DNA of 28,693 nucleotides from a virus. Numbering within the stretch: position 1 is the first letter of the stretch; each line of letters opens with the position of its first letter. The notes under the pieces were generated by a model. That model was given only the letters and a program-made list of their open reading frames with translations. It did not search any database and was not told where the DNA came from. The DNA is taken from IMG/VR virus record IMGVR_UViG_3300032331_001267, positions 1 through 28,693 of that record; one strand, written 5' to 3'. The position numbers and the translations under genes are program-made. This document shows positions 9,371 through 22,009 of this stretch, piece by piece.

Positions 9371-9398
9371 TATTATACTATCCGGCCGGTAATGTCAA
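9370..9398 (-). promoter_or_regulatory. Candidate host sigma-70-type early promoter
   Basis: The minus strand has TTGACA (9398-9393) and then TATAAT (9377-9372) with a 15-base spacer, or TAATAT (9375-9370) with a 17-base spacer. The -35 is a perfect match and lies inside the last codons of fcl. The expected start point falls about 25 bases before the ATG of the 77-aa gene. It would give the replication block (small genes, tRNA-Gly, gp43, uvsX, gp41) its own transcription start, independent of the glycan island. Confidence 0.6.
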
Positions 9399-10305
9399 AT
9401 TTTTTATACCATTCGTAAGTGTCAATAATTCCTGGCAATAGAAGAGTATTTGGTTTCCAACCTAGAGCTTTGATTTTGTCTATGTTCAGAACCTTACGCA
9501 TTGTACCATTCGGTTTAGTTTTATCCCAGATAATAAATCCTTCATAACCAACAACAGCAGCTACCATATTAGCTAGTTCTCTGATGCTAATATCTATACC
9601 AGTTCCTACATTGATGATTTCACCATCATCATAGTTGTCCATGAGGAATGTACAAGCCTCAGCCAAGTCATCGACATGAAGAAATTCACGCATAGGTGAA
9701 CCATCACCCCAGCATACAACTTCAGGATCATTATTCAACTTAGCCTTATGGAATCTATCAATCAGACCAGGAAGAACGTGTGAGTTCTCAGGATGAAAGT
9801 TATCGCCAGGACCATAGAGATTTGTCGGCATCAAAGAAATGGCATTGAAAGCATATTGCTCTCTGTATGCTTGACACATCTTGACACCTGCAATCTTTGC
9901 GATAGCATAAGCATCATTGGTTGGCTCTAACGAACCTGTAAGCAACTCAGACTCGGTGATTGGAATATTTGATAGCTTAGGATAGATGCAAGATGATCCA
10001 AGAAACACTAGCTTCTTCACATCATATACATATGCAGCATCGATTACATTGGTCTGTATCATCAAGTTCTCATAGATAAACTCGGCCTTGAAATCTTTAT
10101 TGGCCTTGATACCACCAACCTTTGCAGCCGCCAGATATACATAGTCAGGCTTGGTCTTCTCAAAAAAAGCATACACATCATCTTGGATAGTCAGATCAAC
10201 TTGTCTCCTATCTGCAACAATAGGTTCAATACCCTTCTTAATCAAGTTTCGAACAATAGCAGAACCAACAAGCCCTTTATGCCCTGCAACAAATACTTTA
10301 GTCAT
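9373..10305 (-). CDS. fcl: GDP-L-fucose synthase (GDP-4-keto-6-deoxymannose epimerase/reductase)
   Basis: 310 aa, close to the usual 310-320. It converts GDP-4-keto-6-deoxy-D-mannose to GDP-L-fucose using NADPH. The extended SDR signature is complete: Rossmann motif G-H-K-G-L-V-G (8-14), active-site L-G-S-S-C-I-Y-P with the catalytic Ser, and Y-A-I-A-K with the catalytic Tyr and Lys. Family signatures are also present: [19 protein letters not shown], and [10 protein letters not shown]. Start 10305 is preferred over an upstream in-frame start because GAGG lies 9 bases upstream and the N-terminus then matches the family. It overlaps the gmd stop by 8 bases, so the two enzymes are produced together. 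Confidence 0.96.
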
Positions 10306-11302
10306 TTTCAGCCTCACACATTTCTTTGACAAGCTCTTTGAATGTAGTCTTAGGTTCCCAACCTAGTTCTCGTCTAGCCTTGCTATAATCACCAAGAAGA
10401 CTTTCGACTTCAGAAGGTCTATAGTATCTAGTATCAATTTGAATGATAGTTTTGCCAGTGTTTTTATCGACACCAAACTCTTTCTCTCCTTCGCCAAGCC
10501 ATATGATGTCCATACCAAAATATGGTGCAGAGGCTTCAACGAATTCACGAACAGAGTATTGCTCACCTGTAGCGATTACATAATCTTCAGGGTTCTCCTG
10601 TTGCAACATCAACCACATTGCCTCAACGAAATCTCTTGCATGACCCCAATCGCGTTTCGCATCAAGATTACCAAGATGCAATTTATCTTGCTTACCAATT
10701 GAAATCTTATGTAGTGCAGATGTGATCTTCTTGGTCACAAAGGTCTCACCGCGACGAGGAGATTCGTGATTAAAAAGAATACCTGTGCAGGCATACATGT
10801 GATATGCTTCACGATAGTTTCTGGTGATCCAGTAACCATAAAGCTTTGCAACACCATATGGGCTACGAGGATAAAATGGCGTCGTCTCTCTCTGAGGTAC
10901 TTCTTGAACCAATCCAAACATTTCAGATGTAGAAGCCTGATAAACCTTCGTGTAGTCATCAAGCTTCAATGCACGAACCGAATCGAGGATTCTCAGAGTG
11001 CCAAGAGCATCAACCTGACCTGTATATTCAGGCATATCAAACGAAACTCTCACATGGCTTTGGGCTGCAAGATTATAAATTTCAGACGGAGTGATCTCGC
11101 CAATAATCTGTGTCAATCGGCTAGAGTCGGTCATATCACCATAATGCAGATTCAGTTTATCATAGATATGATCGATGCGACCTGTATTGAAAGATGAACT
11201 GCGACGGATAATTCCATGCACTTCATAACCCTTAGACAAAAGCAACTCGGCTAGATATGAGCCGTCTTGACCGGTGATACCGGTAATCAATGCAACTGTC
11301 AT
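10298..11302 (-). CDS. gmd: GDP-mannose 4,6-dehydratase
   Basis: 334 aa, near the family norm. It converts GDP-D-mannose to GDP-4-keto-6-deoxy-D-mannose, the first step to GDP-fucose. Motifs: NADP-binding G-I-T-G-Q-D-G (8-14), the family-typical [15 protein letters not shown], active-site S-T-S-E-M-F-G, catalytic Y-G-V-A-K, and [18 protein letters not shown], which is diagnostic for Gmd. Also present is [21 protein letters not shown] is upstream of ATG 11302. It is immediately followed by fcl, the standard GDP-fucose pair. Confidence 0.97.
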
Positions 11303-11314
11303 TTCAAAGTATCC

Positions 11315-12007
11315 TTATTTCGACCAATTTTGATAGTCGTCACGAATGAGAGAATGTGAAGACCCGTTGTGTGGGCCTGGCGGAAATGGATTGTTCATAT
11401 CTACATAGACGAGGTTTTCACCGACAAGACCATGATGATGTAAGTTAGCAGACATTATATCTTCACCATTCATTGGCACGTTCTGAGAATAGTAATAATC
11501 CAGATAGAGATAAGCTGACATATGCTTAGTCATAACGACAGATGAACCAAAAGCAAACTGGTCATTACCAAAATCTCTTTGAGGAACAATACGACAATTT
11601 GGAATGTATATCTTATCTTTAGCCAACTGACCGAATGGAATACGACCATTCATGGCATAATCAGTTCTTGACCTGATAACGAAATCATAAGGCTGTGTCA
11701 GTACCTCATATCCAATCCTCAATAGTGAAGACTGAAAGATAGAATAGTTTGAAGATACGGTGAAGCGAGCAGGATGCTTTATTGCATCCGGCACTCTTGG
11801 ATATTTCTTATCCATATCTTCATCGAACATAGAGTCCTCAAACTTATAGGCCTTAGGTTTATAAAGGTCGATGATCTCTTGATTGTAATCGGTGTTCCAT
11901 GAATGAATGAATACGTCTACATCCTCATCAAGGAGGTTTCTCTTGTAGAACTCATAACCTTTACGAAACGATCTGGGCTGGCCAGCAAAGCATAGAGCGA
12001 TTTTCAC
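11315..12007 (-). CDS. Glycosyltransferase-like protein of the glycan island
   Basis: 230 aa. It begins MKIALCFAGQPRSFRKGYEF and continues DVDVFIHSWNTDYNQ. This opening (F-A-G-Q-P-R-S ... D-V-F-I-H-S-W) is typical of a family of phage and bacterial surface-polysaccharide proteins thought to be GT-A-like transferases. A middle segment (YDFVIRSRTDYAMNG) carries an R-x-R-x-D that could serve as the metal/nucleotide site. The start codon is GTG 12007, whose GTGA overlaps the stop of the upstream gene. The donor and acceptor cannot be deduced. Confidence 0.7.
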   Translation of the reverse strand: MKIALCFAGQPRSFRKGYEFYKRNLLDEDVDVFIHSWNTDYNQEIIDLYKPKAYKFEDSMFDEDMDKKYPRVPDAIKHPARFTVSSNYSIFQSSLLRIGYEVLTQPYDFVIRSRTDYAMNGRIPFGQLAKDKIYIPNCRIVPQRDFGNDQFAFGSSVVMTKHMSAYLYLDYYYSQNVPMNGEDIMSANLHHHGLVGENLVYVDMNNPFPPGPHNGSSHSLIRDDYQNWSK

Positions 12008-12453
12008 ATTGACCTCAAAGTTTCAACATAGTCTGAACACACACCGATTGTCTTTAGCTTGTGACATTCTTCTAATGACCATTCCAATTCAGGAAGAACC
12101 ATGATGCAGGCACCAGCGGGTTGCTTACCTGGATAAGCCCAAACGAAACCATGACTGGTGATAGTATAGTTATCCGTCTGATGCCAAAAGTAAACGAGAT
12201 TGCTATAGCATAGCTTGTCAAGAGCCTCTGGATTCTTGCAGTGAATCCAGAGGTAGTCTTTACGATCCTTCAACCATTCCATATCAACTTCATATTGACC
12301 TTCGTCATGCCCTAACATAAACTTACCGTCTATGTATCTAAGATCAACTTCTACATGGTAGCCGATATCAATGGCTTTGTCAATAGCCTCAGGTGAATTT
12401 TCTTCACAAGATTTTGGGCCTGTAAGATTGCCTCTATGAGAGATAAGAAACAT
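12004..12453 (-). CDS. Glycerophosphodiester phosphodiesterase-like (short TIM-barrel) protein
   Basis: 149 aa, much shorter than true GDPD enzymes (about 240-350 aa). The opening I-S-H-R-G-N matches the GDPD catalytic H-R-G, followed by S-C-E-E-N-S-P-E-A-I-D-K-A and then V-E-V-D-L-R-x-x-D-G-x-x-x-L-G-H-D, which carry the usual metal-binding E-x-D and catalytic H-D. The later barrel strands are only partly visible (YLWIHCKN). It could be a minimal phosphodiesterase acting on a phosphoglycerol or sugar-phosphate moiety. It overlaps the HAD-nucleotidyltransferase fusion stop as TAATG, suggesting a shared pathway. Confidence 0.7.
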   Translation of the reverse strand: MFLISHRGNLTGPKSCEENSPEAIDKAIDIGYHVEVDLRYIDGKFMLGHDEGQYEVDMEWLKDRKDYLWIHCKNPEALDKLCYSNLVYFWHQTDNYTITSHGFVWAYPGKQPAGACIMVLPELEWSLEECHKLKTIGVCSDYVETLRSM

Positions 12454-13835
12454 TATAGTTCACCACCATTATAGTTTTCAAGGAAGTAATTTAGGTCTTC
12501 TGGTGTACCGATACCCCACATCCTGTCGATTTTCTTGACCCTGATCTTCTTGCCATCAGCGATAGCTTCATTGAATACAGGGCACACATAGAACTCGTTG
12601 TTGGTTCGAATGTTCTTTTCAATCATCTGTTCGGCATACTTCACATAGTCAGAGCCATGCTTCCAGTAATAGACACCAACAGTAGCAATGTCTGAGATAG
12701 GATTCTTCTCAGCCACCTCTGTCACGAATCCATCTTCACCAATCTTTGCGAATGACCACTTAGGATGTGTGGCTCTAAACGTCACAATGCCACCATCAAT
12801 ACCATCGGCAGTGAAAGCATACAGACATTCATTAGAATTCCATTCGATGAATTGGTCTGAGTTTGCCATGAGCAATGGTTGGTCGTTATCAATAAGTTCT
12901 TTAGCCAATAGTGTAGTGCAAGCCGCACCTTCTGTCAACCCATCCACCTGAATGATATCACAACCAGGCTGGATTAGATTGAGCAACTGTTTCAAGTTAT
13001 ACTTCTCATAGTGATCTTTCTGAACGATGAAGATATAGTGAGCTTCAACATTCAAATTATCGGTCACCACCTGGATCATTGGCTTATTATGAACCTCGAT
13101 TAGTGGTTTTGGAAATGTGTAACCAGCCTGTGCAAACCTGCTGCCAGCACCTGCCATAGGAATCAATACATTCATCTTATTATCTCTCCATGAAATCTTC
13201 TTCTTCTTCACACCATTCAATAGCTCAACAGCCTCTCTGACCTTCTCTTCTTTCATATCATAGGAGTCTTTGATAGGAATAAGATGAGCACCAGAGTTCA
13301 ATGCACCTTCACGGCCGATGTGGCTATCTTCAAAAATGACAGTATCTTTCGGCAGAGCATTGAGTGCTGTCATACACTGCCAATACATTTCAGGATATGG
13401 CTTGCTTCTCTTCACATCTTCATTGCTGACATAGTAATCAACATATCGCATGACACCAATTGACAGTAGAGCGAGCTTGACTGTCTCGCGGATAGAATTA
13501 CTAGCCACAGCAATTCGAATGCCTTGTCGATGTAGAAAGCGAAACATAGACACTAACTCATAGTCTATATCAAACATACCCATGAGTTCAAATGTGGCCT
13601 GTTGCTTGTCTTTCCATATGCTATCGTAATATTTTGGATCAAGCCCTTTGTTCAAAGAAAGCATCTCAAGCTTCTTAGTCGTACTCAATCCATCATAGAT
13701 ACTCAGATGCTCTTCACGAGTGATGATATAATCTTCACTGAGATTTCGCAGAGCATCATTCAAAGCCTTATAGTGCAACTCTCGCGAATCGATGAGTACA
13801 CCATCAAGATCAAAAATAACAAGCTTATTCATCAT
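12453..13835 (-). CDS. Fusion of HAD phosphatase and sugar-phosphate nucleotidyltransferase
   Basis: 460 aa in two domains. Residues 1-205 are a HAD-superfamily hydrolase: F-D-L-D-G-V-L (8-14) with the nucleophile Asp, a Ser/Asn motif V-A-S-N-S, a Lys motif K-R-S-K-P-Y-P-E, and I-F-E-D-S-H-I-G-R-E-G. Residues 221-460 are a complete GT-A-type nucleotidyltransferase: LIPMAGAGSRFAQAGYTFPK (224-243), M-A-N-S-D-Q-F (the usual D-x-D place) and a late W-G-I-G-T-P-E-D-L. The natural inference is dephosphorylation and nucleotide activation of a small phosphorylated precursor. Consecutive ATGs at 13835 and 13832 are both possible. An in-frame ATG at 13175 with its own GGAG could make the transferase separately. 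Confidence 0.88.
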   Translation of the reverse strand: MMNKLVIFDLDGVLIDSRELHYKALNDALRNLSEDYIITREEHLSIYDGLSTTKKLEMLSLNKGLDPKYYDSIWKDKQQATFELMGMFDIDYELVSMFRFLHRQGIRIAVASNSIRETVKLALLSIGVMRYVDYYVSNEDVKRSKPYPEMYWQCMTALNALPKDTVIFEDSHIGREGALNSGAHLIPIKDSYDMKEEKVREAVELLNGVKKKKISWRDNKMNVLIPMAGAGSRFAQAGYTFPKPLIEVHNKPMIQVVTDNLNVEAHYIFIVQKDHYEKYNLKQLLNLIQPGCDIIQVDGLTEGAACTTLLAKELIDNDQPLLMANSDQFIEWNSNECLYAFTADGIDGGIVTFRATHPKWSFAKIGEDGFVTEVAEKNPISDIATVGVYYWKHGSDYVKYAEQMIEKNIRTNNEFYVCPVFNEAIADGKKIRVKKIDRMWGIGTPEDLNYFLENYNGGEL

Positions 13836-14452
13836 ACCCTCTTAAAGAAAAGATTTACTTCATTACCATTGATGTCAGCACATTGTTTACCAACACCATC
13901 AGCTTCAACTCTGACTTCAAAACCTTTCGATTCGAGCCAAGGCTTCACAACACTCACCGTATTATCTTCGATATCATACAGTTCGACATGATTTGCAACT
14001 TCACACACACCTTCTTTGACGATACCAATCATATCACCCAGGCTCTTCATAACATTGAAGTCATTACCTTGAGCATCAACATGAAGATAATCGATCTCTT
14101 TGATACCATATAATTTTACGAAATCATCAAGACGAATACACATCATCTTTGAAATCGTTTCATCATAGTTGAATTCACCACGACTCCACTTAGAATGAAT
14201 GTCTGGTGCAAATTGATGAAGACTGCTACAGCCCCAATCACCACCTTTTGAGATATTAAATTGCTTGAATCCATTCTCAACATCAATGGCGGCCATGATA
14301 AGATGAAATTTTGGATTGCTGCCGAAACGATCTATCAAATCTTTGGCCAATTGTGGCACAGGTTCGAATGAGTATAGTTCTACGTCTCTATATGACAAAA
14401 ACCTTTCAGTGTCTTGGCCTTGATTCGCACCGACTTCAATGATAACTGGCAT
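13832..14452 (-). CDS. FkbM-family SAM-dependent methyltransferase
   Basis: 206 aa. The SAM-binding motif is at the very start: I-I-E-V-G-A-N-Q-G-Q-D-T, then L-Y-S-F-E-P-V-P (acidic motif II) and, after a variable loop, I-R-L-D-D-F-V and I-D-Y-L-H-V-D-A-Q-G-N-D-F-N-V-M-K-S, which is the FkbM signature. FkbM proteins O-methylate sugars or polyketides. It overlaps both neighbours (TAATG before, ATGA after). This is one of two FkbM proteins in the island, and they are not close copies of one another. Confidence 0.85.
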   Translation of the reverse strand: MPVIIEVGANQGQDTERFLSYRDVELYSFEPVPQLAKDLIDRFGSNPKFHLIMAAIDVENGFKQFNISKGGDWGCSSLHQFAPDIHSKWSRGEFNYDETISKMMCIRLDDFVKLYGIKEIDYLHVDAQGNDFNVMKSLGDMIGIVKEGVCEVANHVELYDIEDNTVSVVKPWLESKGFEVRVEADGVGKQCADINGNEVNLFFKRV

Positions 14453-15159
14453 TATTGATAATCAAACCTTTCTTTAACCTCTGGATGAATTTGCCCGCCG
14501 CGACCATCAGGAGGTAAGTGGTCACGGCAGCAGGTATAATATGAATTCACATCACTAATCTCATGTACATCCGAGATGAAGTGCATTTCACTCTCAGGTA
14601 TATATTGTGTTAGTTTAACATATAACCCGTGGGTGTCAACCATTGGTTTACCTCTAGGCCACGCATATGTTTCATACATAGCTTTCATCACTGTTGCCGA
14701 CCATCTCTGTGGAAAGATGTAGAAGTTATCGCAGGTAAATCTGGCATTTTCCCACCAACCTTGTTCTCGAAATAGAAAGTTAAATTTGGTGAAGTCTACA
14801 TTACTATCAGCAATCACCTTGCTGAAGTGTATATCATTTCGGCAGAACACAATAGCATCCACACTTTCGTCATGGACAAAATTGACAAACGAAGCACCCT
14901 TTGATGTAAAGGCATCTGAACCTTTCAATTCAGAGAATAGAACCCTATCAGGATTTGTAGTACGATAGAATTCTTCTTGTATCTTCTTATCATCTATATG
15001 GTATGTTGAGAAGTAGATTTTTGCTTCATGACCTTTCGCAACAAAAGGATCAATCAGCATCTTCTTGATGTTTGGCCAGCAATGCCTAAAATCTCTATTG
15101 ATAGGAGTTTTACCTCCTGCGCCGTATGCGATACCATAGAAAGCAAAACCAAGTCTCAA
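14452..15159 (-). CDS. Unknown glycan-island protein, probably glycosyltransferase-like
   Basis: 235 aa. The N-terminus (LGFAFYGIAYGAGGKTPINR) is followed by a hydrophobic strand/acidic pattern, I-Y-F-S-T-Y-H-I-D-D. The middle has V-D-A-I-V-F-C-R-N-D-I-H-F-S-K, which resembles the R-x-D segment of the other glycosyltransferase-like proteins here. Trp-rich C-terminal part. The start codon is TTG 15159 with GGAG 7 bases upstream, and it overlaps the fucosyltransferase stop. I cannot assign a substrate; the call rests on context and pattern. Confidence 0.6.
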   Translation of the reverse strand: MRLGFAFYGIAYGAGGKTPINRDFRHCWPNIKKMLIDPFVAKGHEAKIYFSTYHIDDKKIQEEFYRTTNPDRVLFSELKGSDAFTSKGASFVNFVHDESVDAIVFCRNDIHFSKVIADSNVDFTKFNFLFREQGWWENARFTCDNFYIFPQRWSATVMKAMYETYAWPRGKPMVDTHGLYVKLTQYIPESEMHFISDVHEISDVNSYYTCCRDHLPPDGRGGQIHPEVKERFDYQ

Positions 15160-16040
15160 TTCAAAACTCCATGATATACATTAGCTGCGAACCAGTATGT
15201 AAACAAGTGCATATCGAATACCTTGTTTCTAGTATTCAAAATAGGTTGCTGTAGAAGTCTATTATATTCTGTATCATTCTGGTCTAGATGTTCAATATAC
15301 TTTATCATCTCAGCATCGTTGATGAAATCGTGGTGAGAGATGAAAGCATTCGGATTGAAATCCATTTCGACTGTTGGGCTACCCCAATAGATAGGTACTG
15401 TGTTATAAGAGAGAGCATGGAACAACTTCTCTGTCACATAACCTGGATACGAGGTATTCTCATAGCAAAGATTGAACTTGCGTTTCTCCAAGAACTCTTT
15501 CTTCGATAAATGAAAGTCAGATAGACCATCACGACCGAGTATGTAACCAATGTTATTGAATAGAGGCCCACCACTATCGATCTGCTTATACTTCGATAGC
15601 TGATGGAACATAATGTTTCTGGGTTCACAGCCACCATTCTTCACAACAAAGCTACAGAAGCCAGTCTTGTCTGAGGCTTTAGCATCTCTTTTCACATCTC
15701 TGATATCAGATAGACCCAGCTTCTTGGTATTCACCCAGTTGTCGATAACATATAGTGGAAGCCTATAGTGATTCTTAGAATCTATATGGTCAAATGACAT
15801 TGCAAAGTGGGCAGCATAGTCAGAAGGTCTTGCGTTTTCACCTGTGAAGAATATCTTGATGACCTTCTTATCATTGAACCTATGATTGTCTTGACCGAAG
15901 TTTGCATCGCAGAAGATTAGATAGTCAGGGTTCTCATCATCTCTGATAATTTCAAACGCATCGGATAGAGCATCGATGAAGAATTCGTCTAATGGTTTGA
16001 AGTAGTCTGTGAAGCCTAGTCTGAGAACAGGCTTATTCAT
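15156..16040 (-). CDS. GT10-family (alpha-1,3-type) fucosyltransferase
   Basis: 294 aa. The C-terminal half carries the GT10 donor-binding signature: C-Y-E-N-T-S-Y-P-G-Y-V-T-E-K-L-F-H-A-L (192-210), then N-T-V-P-I-Y-W-G (213-220), where E194, N195 and K205 are the GDP-fucose contacts expected in the family. The N-terminal part has F-F-T-G-E-N (64-69), as in Helicobacter-type FucTs, and F-C-S-F-V-V (128-133). The family transfers L-fucose from GDP-fucose to GlcNAc or similar. Bacterial members are soluble or peripheral; no signal or transmembrane segment is seen. In the same island gmd and fcl make its donor. It overlaps the upstream gene by ATGA. Confidence 0.9.
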   Translation of the reverse strand: MNKPVLRLGFTDYFKPLDEFFIDALSDAFEIIRDDENPDYLIFCDANFGQDNHRFNDKKVIKIFFTGENARPSDYAAHFAMSFDHIDSKNHYRLPLYVIDNWVNTKKLGLSDIRDVKRDAKASDKTGFCSFVVKNGGCEPRNIMFHQLSKYKQIDSGGPLFNNIGYILGRDGLSDFHLSKKEFLEKRKFNLCYENTSYPGYVTEKLFHALSYNTVPIYWGSPTVEMDFNPNAFISHHDFINDAEMIKYIEHLDQNDTEYNRLLQQPILNTRNKVFDMHLFTYWFAANVYHGVLN

Positions 16041-17272
16041 TGCCTGGTCTCCACCTTTGGAAAGTATGTGACATAGCGATCATATTCACTATGAGGATTG
16101 TTTTTACGGAGATTCTTAATCTTAGTTACAATCTCATCGTAGAAATTCCATGCAAGAGGCACAAAGCATACTGCATCATTACACTCAGCCAACTTATCAG
16201 ACGAGTAGATAGGTATACTAGAGCCTGGTGTAAAGCGACCTTGCTTCAATGGATTATCATCGATGATGAAATCGAGTTTTAGACCAGAGTAGTTGAGTAG
16301 TGTCATGCCTTTTGCGGCTGCACCATAACCAACACCATACCAACCAACTTCATTTCTGGTCATCAACCCCACTTCTTCAACCAACTCTTTCACAATCTCA
16401 TTACAACGCTCCGCATACTCTACATACGTTTCAGGATCATAAAGACCATCAGCAGCTTCATCTTCGATTATCTGATTGACCAAATTACCACTTAGATCCT
16501 TCTTAGAGATGATGAAAATATAACTTGTGCCATGAATAGGCATCGTCATCACATCAATCAGATATAAACCTGCTCGTTCACAAAGAGCTTTCATGGACTT
16601 TGTGTTGAAGAAAGAGATATGTTCGTGATAGATGGTATCAAACTCATTGTTCACTATCATTTTAGCCTGTGAGGTCTGAATGAACAACAGGCTATCTTCG
16701 TGCATCACCTTTGAGGCCGTCTTCAAAAACGAAAGTGGATCAGGCCCATGAGCGAAGACATTCTGAGCGGTGATAACGTCGAATGTGGGTTTGGTTCTTG
16801 GGCTGATACAGTCGAAAGCCAAATCATCATTGAAATATCCACACCATACCATATGGTTTTTATTTGACAGATGATATAAATTTCTGGCTGGATCAACACC
16901 ATAAGTATCATAACCAAGTACCTTGAAATAGTCTAGCTGTGTGCCATCATTACAACCAATATCAAGAACTGTTTCTGATTCTGGTGTCATATCATCGACC
17001 AGAGATGCAAAGTCTTCAAAGTGTTGGTGCATAGTCTTTGCTGTACCACTCACATATAGGTAATCATCGAACATGAGTTCAGGTGCAACCGAGTGTGTGA
17101 GCTGCACATGAAAGCAATGGGCACAATGATTGATAGCAAGAGGATATTCCTCCTGAACATCATCACGATTCAACTTGTATGAATTAGCTAGAGGTTGCTT
17201 ACCAAGATCCAATACAGGAACAAGGTCACTACCACCACATGCAACACATTCTAAAAGGGCCGTGCAACTCAT
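16037..17272 (-). CDS. SAM-dependent sugar C-methyltransferase-like protein (zinc-binding N-domain)
   Basis: 411 aa from ATG 17272, chosen because ATGA overlaps the upstream stop; an in-frame upstream start adds eleven residues. The layout is that of NDP-hexose C-3-methyltransferases. An N-terminal Zn domain has C-V-A-C-G-G and C-A-H-C-F-H. A Rossmann methyltransferase core has V-L-D-I-G-C-N-D-G-T and F-D-V-I-T-A-Q-N-V-F-A-H. The C-terminal domain contains G-V-G-Y-G-A-A-A-K-G and I-D-D-N-P-L-K-Q-G-R-F-T-P-G-S-S-I-P, both characteristic. These enzymes act on 4-keto sugars, so the neighbouring 4,6-dehydratase would supply the substrate. The exact sugar is not known. Confidence 0.85.
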   Translation of the reverse strand: MSCTALLECVACGGSDLVPVLDLGKQPLANSYKLNRDDVQEEYPLAINHCAHCFHVQLTHSVAPELMFDDYLYVSGTAKTMHQHFEDFASLVDDMTPESETVLDIGCNDGTQLDYFKVLGYDTYGVDPARNLYHLSNKNHMVWCGYFNDDLAFDCISPRTKPTFDVITAQNVFAHGPDPLSFLKTASKVMHEDSLLFIQTSQAKMIVNNEFDTIYHEHISFFNTKSMKALCERAGLYLIDVMTMPIHGTSYIFIISKKDLSGNLVNQIIEDEAADGLYDPETYVEYAERCNEIVKELVEEVGLMTRNEVGWYGVGYGAAAKGMTLLNYSGLKLDFIIDDNPLKQGRFTPGSSIPIYSSDKLAECNDAVCFVPLAWNFYDEIVTKIKNLRKNNPHSEYDRYVTYFPKVETRQ

Positions 17273-18294
17273 ATCTCTAACCACCTTTGATTCTGTAGAT
17301 ACCAATCCGATACTTGTTTAATGCGCTCTGTCAATGCAATGCGTGGTTCCCATCCAAATGACCTCATCAGGTCACCACTCAAGGCATATCGCATATCATG
17401 GCCAGGTCGCGAAGTGTGAAAGTCTACCATCTCGTAGACCAATTCTTTACCTTGTGCGGCTGCAATCATCTGAGCGAGAGAAAGGTTATCAATCTCTTCT
17501 TTGCCTACAAGGTTGAACTTGGCACAACGAGCATTACCATAGTCAGGTTCAGGTTGTGGTCTATTCATCAATAAGAAGTGAATACCATCAGCCACATCTT
17601 TTGCATGAATGTAGAAGCGGCTGCCAGCCTGTGTCTTTGTGTGGTCAGCATGAATGAAAATCTTCTCACCCTTATGAACACGACGAATACAAAGAGGAAT
17701 AAACTTTTCAGGTGTCTGACGTTCACCAAAGACATTCATTGTATGTGTAATCATCATGGGAATCTTATAGGTATTCTCATAGGCCACACACAACTCTTCT
17801 GCGCCGGCCTTTGATGCTGAATATGGATTCGTAGAGTTATATCTAGCCCTCTCATCATATGCAACACCAGGCGGAGCAACACCGAAGATTTCGTCGGTGC
17901 TAAAGTATAGCATCATCTCAAGAGAGTCAAGGCGACGAGCATATTCAAGCAGATTAGCGGTACCAATAATATTGTCATTGATAAACTCCATAGGATGTGT
18001 AATCGAACGGTCAACATGTGATGCTGCCGCAAGATGCAGAATGATATCAGGTTTACCGATGAAGTTCGATACCAATGGATTGATTTCGGCCTTCAGGTCG
18101 TGGAATACAATGTTCACTCGCTTCTGAGTGGCGGCATCATAGTTCTGCAAGACCTCATGGAGGCGATTGAGATTACCAGAATAGTCAAGGCGATCAAGTG
18201 TGGTGATACGCCAGTCTGTTCGTGTCAATAGCACATCAATCATATGGTGAGCAATGAAGCCACAACCACCAGTAATTAAGACATTTTTACTCAT
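17269..18294 (-). CDS. NAD-dependent nucleotide-sugar 4,6-dehydratase (RmlB-like SDR)
   Basis: 341 aa from ATG 18294, with GGAG about 10 bases upstream. It is an extended SDR with the RmlB layout: N-V-L-I-T-G-G-C-G-F-I (4-14), then H-L-A-A-A-S-H-V-D-R-S, the 4,6-dehydratase active site S-T-D-E-I-F-G, and catalytic Y-S-A-S-K-A-G-A-E. It continues with N-V-F-G-E-R-Q-x-P-E-K-F-I-P and R-x-Y-I-H-A-K-D-V-A. The D-E pair after S-T identifies a dehydratase rather than a simple epimerase. Together with the C-methyltransferase it would make a 4-keto, possibly branched, deoxysugar. The nucleotide carrier (dTDP, CDP or UDP) is not fixed by sequence. It overlaps the preceding gene by 8 bases. Confidence 0.88.
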   Translation of the reverse strand: MSKNVLITGGCGFIAHHMIDVLLTRTDWRITTLDRLDYSGNLNRLHEVLQNYDAATQKRVNIVFHDLKAEINPLVSNFIGKPDIILHLAAASHVDRSITHPMEFINDNIIGTANLLEYARRLDSLEMMLYFSTDEIFGVAPPGVAYDERARYNSTNPYSASKAGAEELCVAYENTYKIPMMITHTMNVFGERQTPEKFIPLCIRRVHKGEKIFIHADHTKTQAGSRFYIHAKDVADGIHFLLMNRPQPEPDYGNARCAKFNLVGKEEIDNLSLAQMIAAAQGKELVYEMVDFHTSRPGHDMRYALSGDLMRSFGWEPRIALTERIKQVSDWYLQNQRWLEI

Positions 18295-18982
18295 CAATAT
18301 ATGCTCCGTTAGGTGCGATGTTACCGCAGACACCTATCTTTTCCACTTCAACAATCTTGTTCAGATGAAGATGCTTATAGTAAGAATGTTCAACATCGAT
18401 GCCATACATCATACAGTCATTTAGTATATTTGGCAAGGCTTCTCTGAATGTCTTCAGCAGAGAATAGTCCATATGCCACGAACGCAGCTTATAGAGTCGG
18501 TCTACACCTGAAGTCCATTTCTGATCTTCTGACATCCATGATGCTTCCGAATTTGCAAAAACAAAAGCACCTTCATATGATTCATCTTCAACCACAAAAT
18601 TTTCATTCAAACGATATCGGCCTGATAGCTTATAGATCCTCTTGGCCTTGATACCTTTCTCTGAGAACCAATCTAAGAAACCTATGAATGCCATGGTCTC
18701 TGCTATGCTTCTTGCACCTGCCCTAGAGAATTTTGCAATATCAGGATTCTCACCGCAATAGACGATTTGCATTCCTCTATCGATCAATTGGTTTATATAC
18801 TCTCGATTAGGATAGTCAGGTGACGAATCAAACATGAACTTCATATTGTTGGGGCAATACTTGTCAATCGAATCGATGGTCTGAATAGTCTGCTGAAATC
18901 TTTCATCTTCATTGTAGACAGATAGCTGTTTGACATTCAACGCATGGTTGATAAAGAAGATACCATCAAGCCCGTCTAGCAT
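18287..18982 (-). CDS. Unknown glycan-island protein, glycosyltransferase-like
   Basis: 231 aa. It begins LDGIFFINHALNVKQLSVYN and has a mid-segment K-R-I-Y-K-L-S-G-R-Y-R-L-N (residues about 135-150) and F-A-N-S-E-A-S-W, then a C-terminal H-S-Y-Y-K-H-L-H-L-N. The K-L-S-G-R-Y stretch recurs in phage and bacterial glycan-cluster proteins thought to be GT-A-like. No DxD metal site is obvious. AGGAT precedes ATG 18982. The function is assigned by context only. Confidence 0.6.
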   Translation of the reverse strand: MLDGLDGIFFINHALNVKQLSVYNEDERFQQTIQTIDSIDKYCPNNMKFMFDSSPDYPNREYINQLIDRGMQIVYCGENPDIAKFSRAGARSIAETMAFIGFLDWFSEKGIKAKRIYKLSGRYRLNENFVVEDESYEGAFVFANSEASWMSEDQKWTSGVDRLYKLRSWHMDYSLLKTFREALPNILNDCMMYGIDVEHSYYKHLHLNKIVEVEKIGVCGNIAPNGAYIDE

Positions 18983-18985
18983 AAC

Positions 18986-19486
18986 TTATCCTTTGATCCA
19001 AAACCAAATAGCAAGATTAGAGATTTGAATAGGTGTACCTATCTTATTACCTCTACGAAAAACATTGAGAGCCTTCTTGACTTCATCGGTATCGTGGTCA
19101 TTACCACAGAAGATTCCACCGATCTTCAATGTGTCGTAGTACTCTTGTAGCTTATCACATGAGCTTCTATGTACACAAACGATATCAGCTTCATTCGATA
19201 GACTACCAACTTCAACTTTATCACCAATCAGGTTTTTGAGATTGGTCTTGAATGGAGTTTCATAGTTAGCATCAGCATCCTTATTGAGAATGTAGACCTT
19301 GTTTACATTAGCACATTGTTCGATGATATCAAAGGTACTCTCACCCTTAAAATCATCAATCATATTAATCGTGATATCTCCACGACGACGCTTGATATAA
19401 GGTATGATACCTCCTGATAGCATGATACCATTTGGCCACAGACCAAACATCTTTAGGTTTTCAATATCGAAAAATTCTGGGTTCAT
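18986..19486 (-). CDS. Class I methyltransferase-like protein, short
   Basis: 166 aa. The order of segments resembles Methyltransf_24-type proteins: an I-N-M-I-D-D strand after residue 40, V-N-K-V-Y-I-L-N-K-D-A (the acidic end of beta-2), A-D-I-V-C-V-H-R, and L-K-I-G-G-I-F-C-G-N-D-H-D-T-D-E-V-K-K-A-L, which is the family's typical late element. A clear glycine-rich SAM loop is missing or degenerate. It may therefore be inactive or bind a different ligand. It overlaps the next gene's stop by ATGA. Confidence 0.55.
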   Translation of the reverse strand: MNPEFFDIENLKMFGLWPNGIMLSGGIIPYIKRRRGDITINMIDDFKGESTFDIIEQCANVNKVYILNKDADANYETPFKTNLKNLIGDKVEVGSLSNEADIVCVHRSSCDKLQEYYDTLKIGGIFCGNDHDTDEVKKALNVFRRGNKIGTPIQISNLAIWFWIKG

Positions 19487-20364
19487 CCGTAGATCCTCTC
19501 AATTTGTTCGCGCAGGCCAGGTACACGATCATATTGATGCACGATGCAATACTTCTCGCCGAGAACATTCTTCACAATACCATCTTCAATGACAGGTTGA
19601 TTATCTTCATAGATTGCTTCATAGTCACTCGGATTTCGCATGAACATTGCACCAAGATCACCCTTGCCAGCCTTCACAGCCTCGATAGTTGTACCAAGCT
19701 GAATAGCCCACTTATCACTATTATTAGTGTAGAAGGTATCATCTTTATATGGTGAGACTGAAAGAATGTAGTTGTAGACGGCCTGATCCACAATCGGGAT
19801 TGGGCGATTGATACTGAGCTGGAAAATCATCAGCATCAGGTCTTTGACATACTCAAAATCGCCACCGATAGTACCAACATTATAGATTGTCCGCTCTTTC
19901 AGTATACCATGAAAGAAAGGCCCAAAAGTCTGTTCGAGATTCTGATTACCCCAAGGCTCATTCTTATATGTCATACCCTCCGAAGAAGCAACGAGGTTGC
20001 TACCAAGAATGTAATCATCAAGCCATAAGGTTGGATCAGACTGAAAAATAACATCGCGAGTATCAGTTGTGACAACGTAGCCATATTTCTCTTTAGTTGT
20101 ATGAAGGAAGTTCCAGATGTGAAAGAAACGCTCAACATGTGGTGCGCTGCTGGTAGGTGAAGTGATATCACCGTTTGGTGTTCGATTACCATAGAGTGAA
20201 AGCTTGACGCCTTCTTGTGACAACTTTTCGATAGTCTCTTTCTTATAGTTAGTTCCTACAAGAACAATATCACCTTCGAAACCGGTCATCTTGATTGAGT
20301 TGACCCAGTACTTCAACTGGTCCCAAGTATAGTTTGATGCTCCGCCTACAATCAGATTCTTCAT
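19483..20364 (-). CDS. Glycosyltransferase-like protein with T-D-T-R-D motif (GT-A fold)
   Basis: 293 aa. The opening M-K-N-L-I-V-G-G-A-S-N-Y-T-W is followed by a nucleotide-fold strand (D-I-V-L-V-G-T-N-Y) and then Y-V-V-T-T-D-T-R-D-V-I-F-Q-S-D-P. The D-x-R-D of that segment takes the place of the D-x-D metal site used by many GT-A enzymes. I-Y-N-V-G-T-I-G-G-D further on matches the acceptor-side motif in the same enzymes. C-terminal C-I-V-H-Q-Y-D-R probably provides the metal His. The overlaps with neighbours are ATGA and TAATG. The substrate is unknown. Confidence 0.75.
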   Translation of the reverse strand: MKNLIVGGASNYTWDQLKYWVNSIKMTGFEGDIVLVGTNYKKETIEKLSQEGVKLSLYGNRTPNGDITSPTSSAPHVERFFHIWNFLHTTKEKYGYVVTTDTRDVIFQSDPTLWLDDYILGSNLVASSEGMTYKNEPWGNQNLEQTFGPFFHGILKERTIYNVGTIGGDFEYVKDLMLMIFQLSINRPIPIVDQAVYNYILSVSPYKDDTFYTNNSDKWAIQLGTTIEAVKAGKGDLGAMFMRNPSDYEAIYEDNQPVIEDGIVKNVLGEKYCIVHQYDRVPGLREQIERIYG

Positions 20365-21092
20365 TATACAACCCTCACATAAAAATCATCCCAACGAGAT
20401 ATCTCAGTAAACTTTCTTGTGTAACCATTCTCGGTCAAAAGCTTATGCAGCTTCTCTCTAATCTCACTACGATTATGCTCGACTGTGATGGCATTGATCT
20501 TATACTTATTTGCGTTCTGGATGAAGAAGGCGTTGAGAATGCCGTACTCTGTACCTTCAGTATCGACAGACAAGAAATCGATAATAGAAGGAGCATCATA
20601 TAATGTAAGCAAATCGAACAGTGAGATCGTATCGACATTGATGAATTCTGCGTTCTTTAATCTAGCTTCTTTGAATTCATCACCTTGACCAAAACCTTTG
20701 ATGGTGGCCAAATCAGGAGCCTCTGTCTTCATAAACTCAACAGTCTCACCACTCTTGGTAAAGAGACACTTGGTCGAGATATTGCAGGAACGATTCTTAT
20801 ACAGGGCTTCATGCCAGACAGGATTAGGTTCAGCAAGAATACCTGTCCAACCATAATCTCTCTCTAAGATATATGAGTTGCTGGTATTCTTACCATCAGT
20901 TGCACCAAATTCAACGAAGAATCCGTCGTTCTTGAAACCATTCTCATAGAGCGCAAAAATATCCTGATAGTTCTGGCTTTCAGATAGCTCTACATGTGAA
21001 AGACAAAATCCGATAAACTTTAGAAGTTCGGATTCCCTGAGAGACTTGAGTTCATCTTTCTTGAGTTCATATAGCAGTTCACCTAAGTTCAT
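20364..21092 (-). CDS. FkbM-family SAM-dependent methyltransferase (second copy)
   Basis: 242 aa. It contains S-Q-N-Y-Q-D-I-F-A-L-Y and F-F-V-E-F-G-A-T-D-G-K-N-T-S-N-S-Y-I-L-E-R-D-Y-G (SAM loop), the acidic L-A-E-P-N-P-V-W-H, and the signature D-F-L-S-V-D-T-E-G-T-E-Y-G-I-L near residue 175. The N-terminal extension of about 40 residues is mostly helical. AAGGAT precedes ATG 21092. The 'SQxyQDxfv' opening is typical of the FkbM subfamily in surface-glycan clusters. It differs from the 206-aa FkbM gene at 14452. Confidence 0.88.
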   Translation of the reverse strand: MNLGELLYELKKDELKSLRESELLKFIGFCLSHVELSESQNYQDIFALYENGFKNDGFFVEFGATDGKNTSNSYILERDYGWTGILAEPNPVWHEALYKNRSCNISTKCLFTKSGETVEFMKTEAPDLATIKGFGQGDEFKEARLKNAEFINVDTISLFDLLTLYDAPSIIDFLSVDTEGTEYGILNAFFIQNANKYKINAITVEHNRSEIREKLHKLLTENGYTRKFTEISRWDDFYVRVV

Positions 21093-21095
21093 TTT

Positions 21096-21860
21096 TTAAT
21101 CCTTTATCCACGGGTATACACCAAAATATCTCTTATACTGTTCTTCATTACCTTTTTCGAAGAATTCTTTGTTGACTGAATTTGGATTACCATCAAGACG
21201 GTAGCAGAGTGTATGCTTACCGTTTGTGTCATGCTCTTCAGTTTTGCGAATGAAATTGTAGAATCGACGGTCACCACCCCAACCATGGTGCCACAGGTGG
21301 GCGCAACCAATCAGAAACTCTCTGCGAAATGCGAATGATGAAGTATCAATCAAATAGTGCTTTTCAGCCGCATCATATGTGAAGTAGATCGGCCACTTAC
21401 CGAGGCTCTCACAGTTGTCATCACAGAGATAGTTCTTATCTTCATCATAGATTTGACGTAGTGAGTATGCAAACTTGTTTGTCTCTAATACCTTGACGAG
21501 GCTTTCGACATGATCTGGTGCATACCAGTTGTCTTCATCGAGGAAGAAGATATAGTCAGAGTTGATTAGATGTGGATAGGCTGCATAGATGCGGTGACCA
21601 TAGAAACCATCACCAACTTTACCTGTATTGTATGGTGATGTTGTCAGAGTTACATGATTTAGCAAATCATCATCGTATGCGAAGTTATGCAAGAATTTTT
21701 TTTGATGTTCTGGACCATCAACGACAATTAGATGGTCGATATGACCATACGTTTGATTCTTGACGCTCAAGATGGCATCTAGAACCTTAGGTGATCCAAT
21801 TGTGGGGGTAATGACCGTTACAGTCTTAGGAGTAGTTGTAGTCACGAAGTTGTATTTCAT
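21096..21860 (-). CDS. Glycosyltransferase family 2
   Basis: 254 aa from ATG 21860; TTG and GTG codons 3 and 6 bases upstream are also in frame. The GT2 pattern is clear: T-V-T-V-I-T-P-T-I-G-S-P-K-V-L-D-A-I-L-S-V-K-N-Q-T-Y at the N-terminus, I-V-V-D-G, and F-F-L-D-E-D-N-W-Y-A-P-D, where the D-x-D-like D-E-D binds metal and nucleotide. A Cys pair near C-D-D-N-C is unusual. The TGA of the preceding membrane microprotein overlaps this ATG (TGATG). It is the first glycan gene of the island in transcription order. Confidence 0.88.
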   Translation of the reverse strand: MKYNFVTTTTPKTVTVITPTIGSPKVLDAILSVKNQTYGHIDHLIVVDGPEHQKKFLHNFAYDDDLLNHVTLTTSPYNTGKVGDGFYGHRIYAAYPHLINSDYIFFLDEDNWYAPDHVESLVKVLETNKFAYSLRQIYDEDKNYLCDDNCESLGKWPIYFTYDAAEKHYLIDTSSFAFRREFLIGCAHLWHHGWGGDRRFYNFIRKTEEHDTNGKHTLCYRLDGNPNSVNKEFFEKGNEEQYKRYFGVYPWIKD

Positions 21861-22009
21861 CACCAATGCCTTATCACGCCAGCTATAATAAACATGTTCG
21901 TTAGTATATAGCTGAAAATTATGACCGTTCGGATGATAGCGACTCTATCAGCCTCAATGTTGTTCTTACCGTTTTTCTCACCAAGAGCCTTAGCCCACAG
22001 TCTCCACAT
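21860..22009 (-). CDS. 49-aa single-pass membrane microprotein (MWRLW type)
   Basis: 49 aa. The N-terminus is basic and Trp-rich (MWRLWAKALGEKNGKNN), then an acidic-hydrophobic segment (IEADRVAIIRTVIIFSYIL) and a hydrophobic end (NMFIIAGVIRHW). It has one predicted transmembrane helix at the C-terminal half. I recall very similar short proteins in other T4-like environmental phages, so this is a real gene, not noise. The TGA overlaps the GT2 start. GGAG is 11 bases upstream, a long spacing. Function unknown. Confidence 0.75.
   Translation of the reverse strand: MWRLWAKALGEKNGKNNIEADRVAIIRTVIIFSYILTNMFIIAGVIRHW

Follow-up and report, generated by a model that had tools for sequence, protein, structure and literature searches.

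The sequence analysed here, hereafter the window, is a 28.7-kb fragment (28,693 nucleotides) of a T4-like phage carrying DNA polymerase, UvsX, clamp and clamp loader genes. Midway through this T4-like replication region, some 12.5 kb (window 9373-21866) consist of sugar-nucleotide, glycosyltransferase and methyltransferase genes, and no close nucleotide match to this block was found among the phage records searched. Within this glycan block, a gene encoding a HAD-nucleotidyltransferase fusion lies together with genes for GDP-mannose dehydratase, GDP-fucose synthase, glycosyltransferases and methyltransferases. The features considered below are as follows.

12004..12453, minus strand: small GDPD-like protein, 149 aa, with the invariant residues HR...EN...ExD...HD
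12453..13835, minus strand: HAD-nucleotidyltransferase fusion gene, 460 aa, a single open frame with a start possibly at 13832
13278..13820, minus strand: HAD-IA phosphatase/phosphomutase-like domain, residues 6-186 (PF13419, E 3.7e-25)
13176..13214, minus strand: linker, residues 208-220, ending in (I/V/L)PW(R/K/E)xxK
13184..13189, minus strand: candidate internal Shine-Dalgarno (SD) GGAGAG, made of Trp216 TGG, Arg217 AGA and base 1 of codon 218
13173..13175, minus strand: internal in-frame ATG, Met221; ATG in 121 of 166 representative relatives and Leu in the other 45
12453..13175, minus strand: predicted transferase-only product, 240 aa, with PF00483 at fusion residues 227-448

An FkbM methyltransferase gene adjoins the fusion upstream, its stop overlapping the ATGATG at the start of the fusion (window 13830-13835). 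The spacing of the AGAGGG element suits the second ATG (13832) better than ATG 13835, to which it lies too near, and the alignments with many relatives begin at residue 2, so the fusion may start at 13832. The overlap of the two genes and the AGAGGG spacing suggest that translation of the fusion is coupled to that of the methyltransferase, with a start at 13832.

The preliminary description of this DNA had recognized a phosphatase fused to a nucleotidyltransferase, and profile searches bear this out: one 460-aa frame passes the curated cut-offs of both HAD_2 (89.5 bits against 23.8) and, at E 6.9e-12, NTP_transferase (45.9 bits against 21.2). In an alignment of 57 diverse proteins, D9, D11, K145, E169 and D170 of the HAD domain and K243 and D327 of the transferase are invariant; both activities are therefore probably real. 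The nearest solved relatives of the HAD domain are TM_1254 and beta-phosphoglucomutase (beta-PGM), with which it shares the HAD-IA fold with a cap domain and the five catalytic residues; in addition, H21 and K77 correspond in the alignment to beta-PGM residues H20 and K76. On the other hand, the cap Arg49 of beta-PGM is not kept in the fusion alignment, and the score lies far under the family cut-off (TIGR01990, 70.8 against 189.4 bits). The closest solved structure to the transferase domain is 4evw from Vibrio cholerae; like RmlA-type nucleotidyltransferases, the domain has the same fold, the nucleotide-binding Gly-rich motif and the catalytic Asp (D327). It differs from them in its score for glucose-1-phosphate thymidylyltransferase (TIGR01208), 52.6 bits against a cut-off of 320.25; this name is given in some phage records.

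The HAD-nucleotidyltransferase fusion is already known and is not new. It is annotated as a single CDS in the Synechococcus phages S-CAM9, S-PRM1, B23, DSL-LC03 and S-8S53/55, about 67-68% identical to that of the window over the full length. Hundreds of viral contigs carry it, and it is common in aquatic viruses; it also occurs in Legionella, Pelagibacter, SAR86, Prochlorococcus, Methylophilaceae and archaeal assemblies, some contigs of which may be viral. A search of an open-access library of papers returned nothing specific on a HAD-NTP fusion with a name of its own or on the substrate of such a fusion. Some other arrangements of the transferase domain were noticed among these loci. One viral lineage has two extra nucleotidyltransferase paralogues of 36% and 26% identity (L032:2893-3582 and L032:6081-6773, and the same in L033), which flank the fusion up- and downstream and bring the locus to three related transferases. 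In the Synechococcus phages SynMITS9220M01, Bellamy and S-SM2 (L087, L088 and L089) the transferase domain is N-terminal in proteins of 385-522 aa, and the S-SM2 ORF has a second, weak NTP match.

A GDPD-like family accompanies the fusion in 121 of the 171 loci examined, Pelagibacter included, 37 of them cellular. The 149-aa member in the window matches Pfam GDPD only at E 0.25, and its length probably does not suffice for a complete TIM barrel. In its place, CPR and archaeal loci have full-size GDPD genes; such a gene is present in 13 cellular loci, mostly with separate HAD and NTP genes. Judged from this gene content, HAD, NTP and GDPD seem to form one module, so that the substrate may be related to glycerol phosphate; phosphoglycerol, tentatively suggested in the preliminary description, agrees only loosely with the conserved GDPD-like neighbour.

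At the border of the two domains, the minus strand reads TGG AGA GAT AAT AAG ATG AAT. As the preliminary description had noted, ATG 13175 is in frame, being codon 221 of 460, with GGAGAG (13189-13184) upstream of it and 8 bases between them. The anti-SD duplex energy at this site is -6.4 kcal/mol; over the 32 genes of the window that start with ATG, the median is -5.6. Among other internal in-frame ATGs of the window, only 3 of 182 (about 1.6%) reach the same energy, although their occurrence also agrees with chance. Taken alone, the site in the window is unusual yet not beyond chance, given that the whole window was read. In E. coli, one report states that SD strength alone predicts translation poorly (PMC7043885), which counts against an internal start. 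In the clade of the window, the internal SD is stronger than the SD at the fusion's own start in 96% of members, and the internal site is less structured than the remaining gene in 87%. Accessibility of the mRNA favours the internal site in the clade with Arg at residue 217 but not in the clade with Glu.

The predicted product of such a start would contain the NTP domain intact, since residues 227-448 lie wholly downstream of Met221. Standalone homologues begin at the equivalent of Met221 or at an adjacent residue. The AlphaFold model of the fusion has a mean pLDDT of 91 and a pTM of 0.57, both domains being confident and their relative placement uncertain, and the linker is its lowest-confidence part (pLDDT 76-79). 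In this model the first strand of the transferase, residues 216-226, spans Met221, so the short product would lose the beginning of that strand, a point against the internal start.

It is the comparison across relatives that takes the internal site beyond chance. The sample comprised 382 viral fusions, of which 225 were unique, reduced to 166 representatives at 93% nucleotide identity. The codon of Trp216 is TGG in 166/166 representatives; this invariance fixes the GG, and the codon of residue 217 alone thus decides whether an SD is present. In the non-redundant relatives with ATG221, Arg217 is encoded by AGA or AGG in 52 of 53 cases; at seven other conserved Arg columns of the same sequences AGR makes up 21-68%, and in W-R pairs elsewhere in the same loci 37 of 72 (51%). 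The Synechococcus phages S-PRM1 and S-8S55 both read TGGAGG...ATG here. Relatives with Leu221 have a mixed Arg217, 24 AGR versus 19 CGN. A further ATG clade, AWESKTMNV, has Glu at residue 217, encoded by GAG in 33/35 compared with 20/92 (22%) for W-E pairs elsewhere. Together, 85 of the 88 representatives of the Arg and Glu clades have both the ATG and an SD-forming codon.

Because the relatives are not independent, a tree was made with the boundary codons left out. By parsimony, Arg217 accompanied by ATG underwent a single AGR/CGN change on this tree versus 5-12 at the seven control Arg columns. In a two-state tree simulation of codon change with rates taken from the control columns, P was 0-0.0004 for the Arg clade, even using the slowest or the most AGR-rich control column, and 0.0008-0.002 for the Glu clade. 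The Leu221 group, by the same parsimony count, shows 7 changes at residue 217, within its control range of 1-9, and its simulated P is 0.27-0.65. This last result bears on the idea that the SD-like stretch pauses ribosomes at the domain border, letting the HAD domain fold first, with no translation start. The position of the stretch, at a domain border within a single chain, agrees with pausing; yet pausing does not need an ATG, and the Leu221 clade, which carries the same fusion, is free of the codon constraint, which makes this explanation decidedly improbable.

Synonymous shuffling gave a concordant picture: SD pairing at Met221 is 1.5 kcal/mol above expectation, and at 10 other Met columns the difference ranges from -0.13 to +0.73 kcal/mol, none of them being enhanced. 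Other causes of the codon pattern were considered and rejected. Arg/Lys toggling does not account for AGR, since most toggling columns have 10-83% AGR; two small ones (n=19 and n=11) are also 100% AGR, which counts against the internal start. Codon-pair bias was set aside, as W-R and W-E pairs elsewhere have no excess of AGR or GAG, and an SD that is a mere Trp-Arg codon artefact, missing in many relatives, was dropped after the codon tests.

The site is not universal in the family. In the Lys217 clade (32 representatives) the ATG is retained but the SD is not enhanced; the Leu221 clade (45 representatives) has no ATG and an unconstrained SD codon, and most cellular fusions lack the SD, reading TGGCAN, TGGACN and similar. 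It follows that about half of the family can do without the short product. The internal ribosome site proposed in the preliminary description, which had named relatives without the SD as evidence against it, therefore stands in part: these clades and most cellular fusions, about half of the relatives, lack it, and the Arg and Glu clades retain it, the SD codon being kept synonymously only in clades that keep the ATG. On these comparisons, only certain lineages have the internal start, that of the window included, and the lineage changes behind this reading of gain and loss are ATG/Leu and AGR/CGN/AAR.

The same distribution could be attributed to chance combined with protein constraint, the Trp codon TGG being fixed, AGA being common and Met opening the first strand of the transferase, with no internal initiation at all. 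The TGG found at every W216 and the lack of SD or ATG in about half of the relatives agree with this explanation. Protein constraint, however, leaves unexplained the AGR:CGN ratio of 52:1 and the GAG:GAA ratio of 33:2, as well as the relaxation of the same codon upon loss of the ATG. Since relaxation of the SD codon coincides precisely with loss of the ATG, a lineage-specific functional site fits better than chance, which we regard as unlikely.

Among the cellular fusions, those of the Pelagibacter contigs L413-L416, L418, L420, L422 and L441 read TGG-GAR-GAT-AAT-AAR-ATG, and three of them have TGGGAGGAT, which makes a strong SD in genomes that are very rich in AT. Judging by these codons, an independent internal start in Pelagibacter is possible.

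Two further explanations assign the SD-like element another role or none. It could stimulate programmed frameshifting of the kind known from dnaX or prfB, by which the HAD domain would be released on its own: the element lies about 10 bases upstream of A-rich codons, and the -1 frame reaches a stop after a median of 11.5 codons. However, a -1 slippery heptamer near the site was found in 0 of 165 relatives checked and the spacer sequence is unconserved, so that a frameshift is hardly credible. Alternatively, the site could be the fossil start of a formerly separate transferase gene, unused since the fusion. Indeed, HAD and NTP are separate adjacent genes in Bacillus phage G and separate neighbours in about one third of cellular loci. 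Nevertheless, at this divergence the synonymous sites of other Arg columns are randomised, and an unused SD would have decayed; moreover, the SD is mostly absent in the nearest cellular fusions and thus looks gained rather than inherited. We therefore consider a fossil start very improbable.

We conclude from the codon comparisons that selection appears to keep the internal ribosome site in the clade of the window, and it is probable that one gene encodes a nested in-frame pair, the fusion and the predicted transferase alone. Ribosomes starting at 13835 or 13832 would produce the HAD-nucleotidyltransferase of 460 or 459 aa, and those entering at GGAGAG and starting at ATG 13175 would produce the 240-aa nucleotidyltransferase, the stop codon being common to both. 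A second entry point for the transferase would place it in excess over the phosphatase; such an unequal ratio is plausible, the stronger internal SD pointing in this direction. We infer that selection acts on internal initiation itself, that the short product could fold and work alone, and that the ratio would be unequal. The HAD domain would probably dephosphorylate or isomerise a phosphorylated precursor, and the RmlA-like domain would probably make an NDP-activated compound for a phage-encoded modification of surface glycans. More tentatively, and with somewhat less than even confidence, a family of T4-like phages may have evolved the internal start inside an older fused glycan-precursor enzyme; lineage-wise gain and loss would then tune stoichiometry by translation, and the short form may join the fusion in a complex.

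As a rule, internal in-frame starts come to light singly through bench work, or they are predicted from the strength of the SD, an approach with many false positives. In the present family the Trp codon is invariant and some lineages have lost the ATG; this provides a natural experiment, in which the SD-forming synonymous codon is fixed only with the ATG. It amounts to comparative evidence that a gene of many aquatic viruses encodes a second, hidden protein, and the codon test is simple and applicable to other fused genes. If the nested pair is real, databases miss one protein per such genome and translation sets the dose of two fused enzymes; its gain and loss among lineages would then be a natural series of translation-tuned enzyme stoichiometry in a phage biosynthetic pathway.

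Comparable coding arrangements are known. T7 gene 4 (63- and 56-kDa primase-helicase) has an internal in-frame start that is served by a separate ribosome binding site and yields a shorter C-terminal form (PMC12593628). Both are phage genes with two fused catalytic units and an internal start, but T7 gene 4 encodes a DNA replication enzyme and is biochemically proven, whereas the evidence for the present internal start is evolutionary; besides, the short T7 form is an N-terminally truncated primase-helicase and not a clean single domain. The two-polypeptide endolysins LysP7951, CTP1L and LysIME-EF1 have in-frame overlapping ORFs with a common stop and an internal RBS that yields a C-terminal product (PMC9430671, PMC4777826, PMC7098653), in one case at a subunit ratio of 1:5 (PMC9430671). 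These enzymes serve in lysis; their short form is either a binding domain or a portion of the enzyme, and in several cases it multimerises with the long form. Unlike theirs, the predicted short form of the fusion comprises an entire catalytic domain and belongs to a biosynthetic enzyme. For Cas11, an internal in-frame start within cas8/cas10 genes gives a C-terminal protein in excess (PMC11899642), although this is a CRISPR subunit and not an enzyme domain. The HAD-nucleotidyltransferase fusion would thus be a further case of an established coding trick, in this instance in a biosynthetic enzyme.
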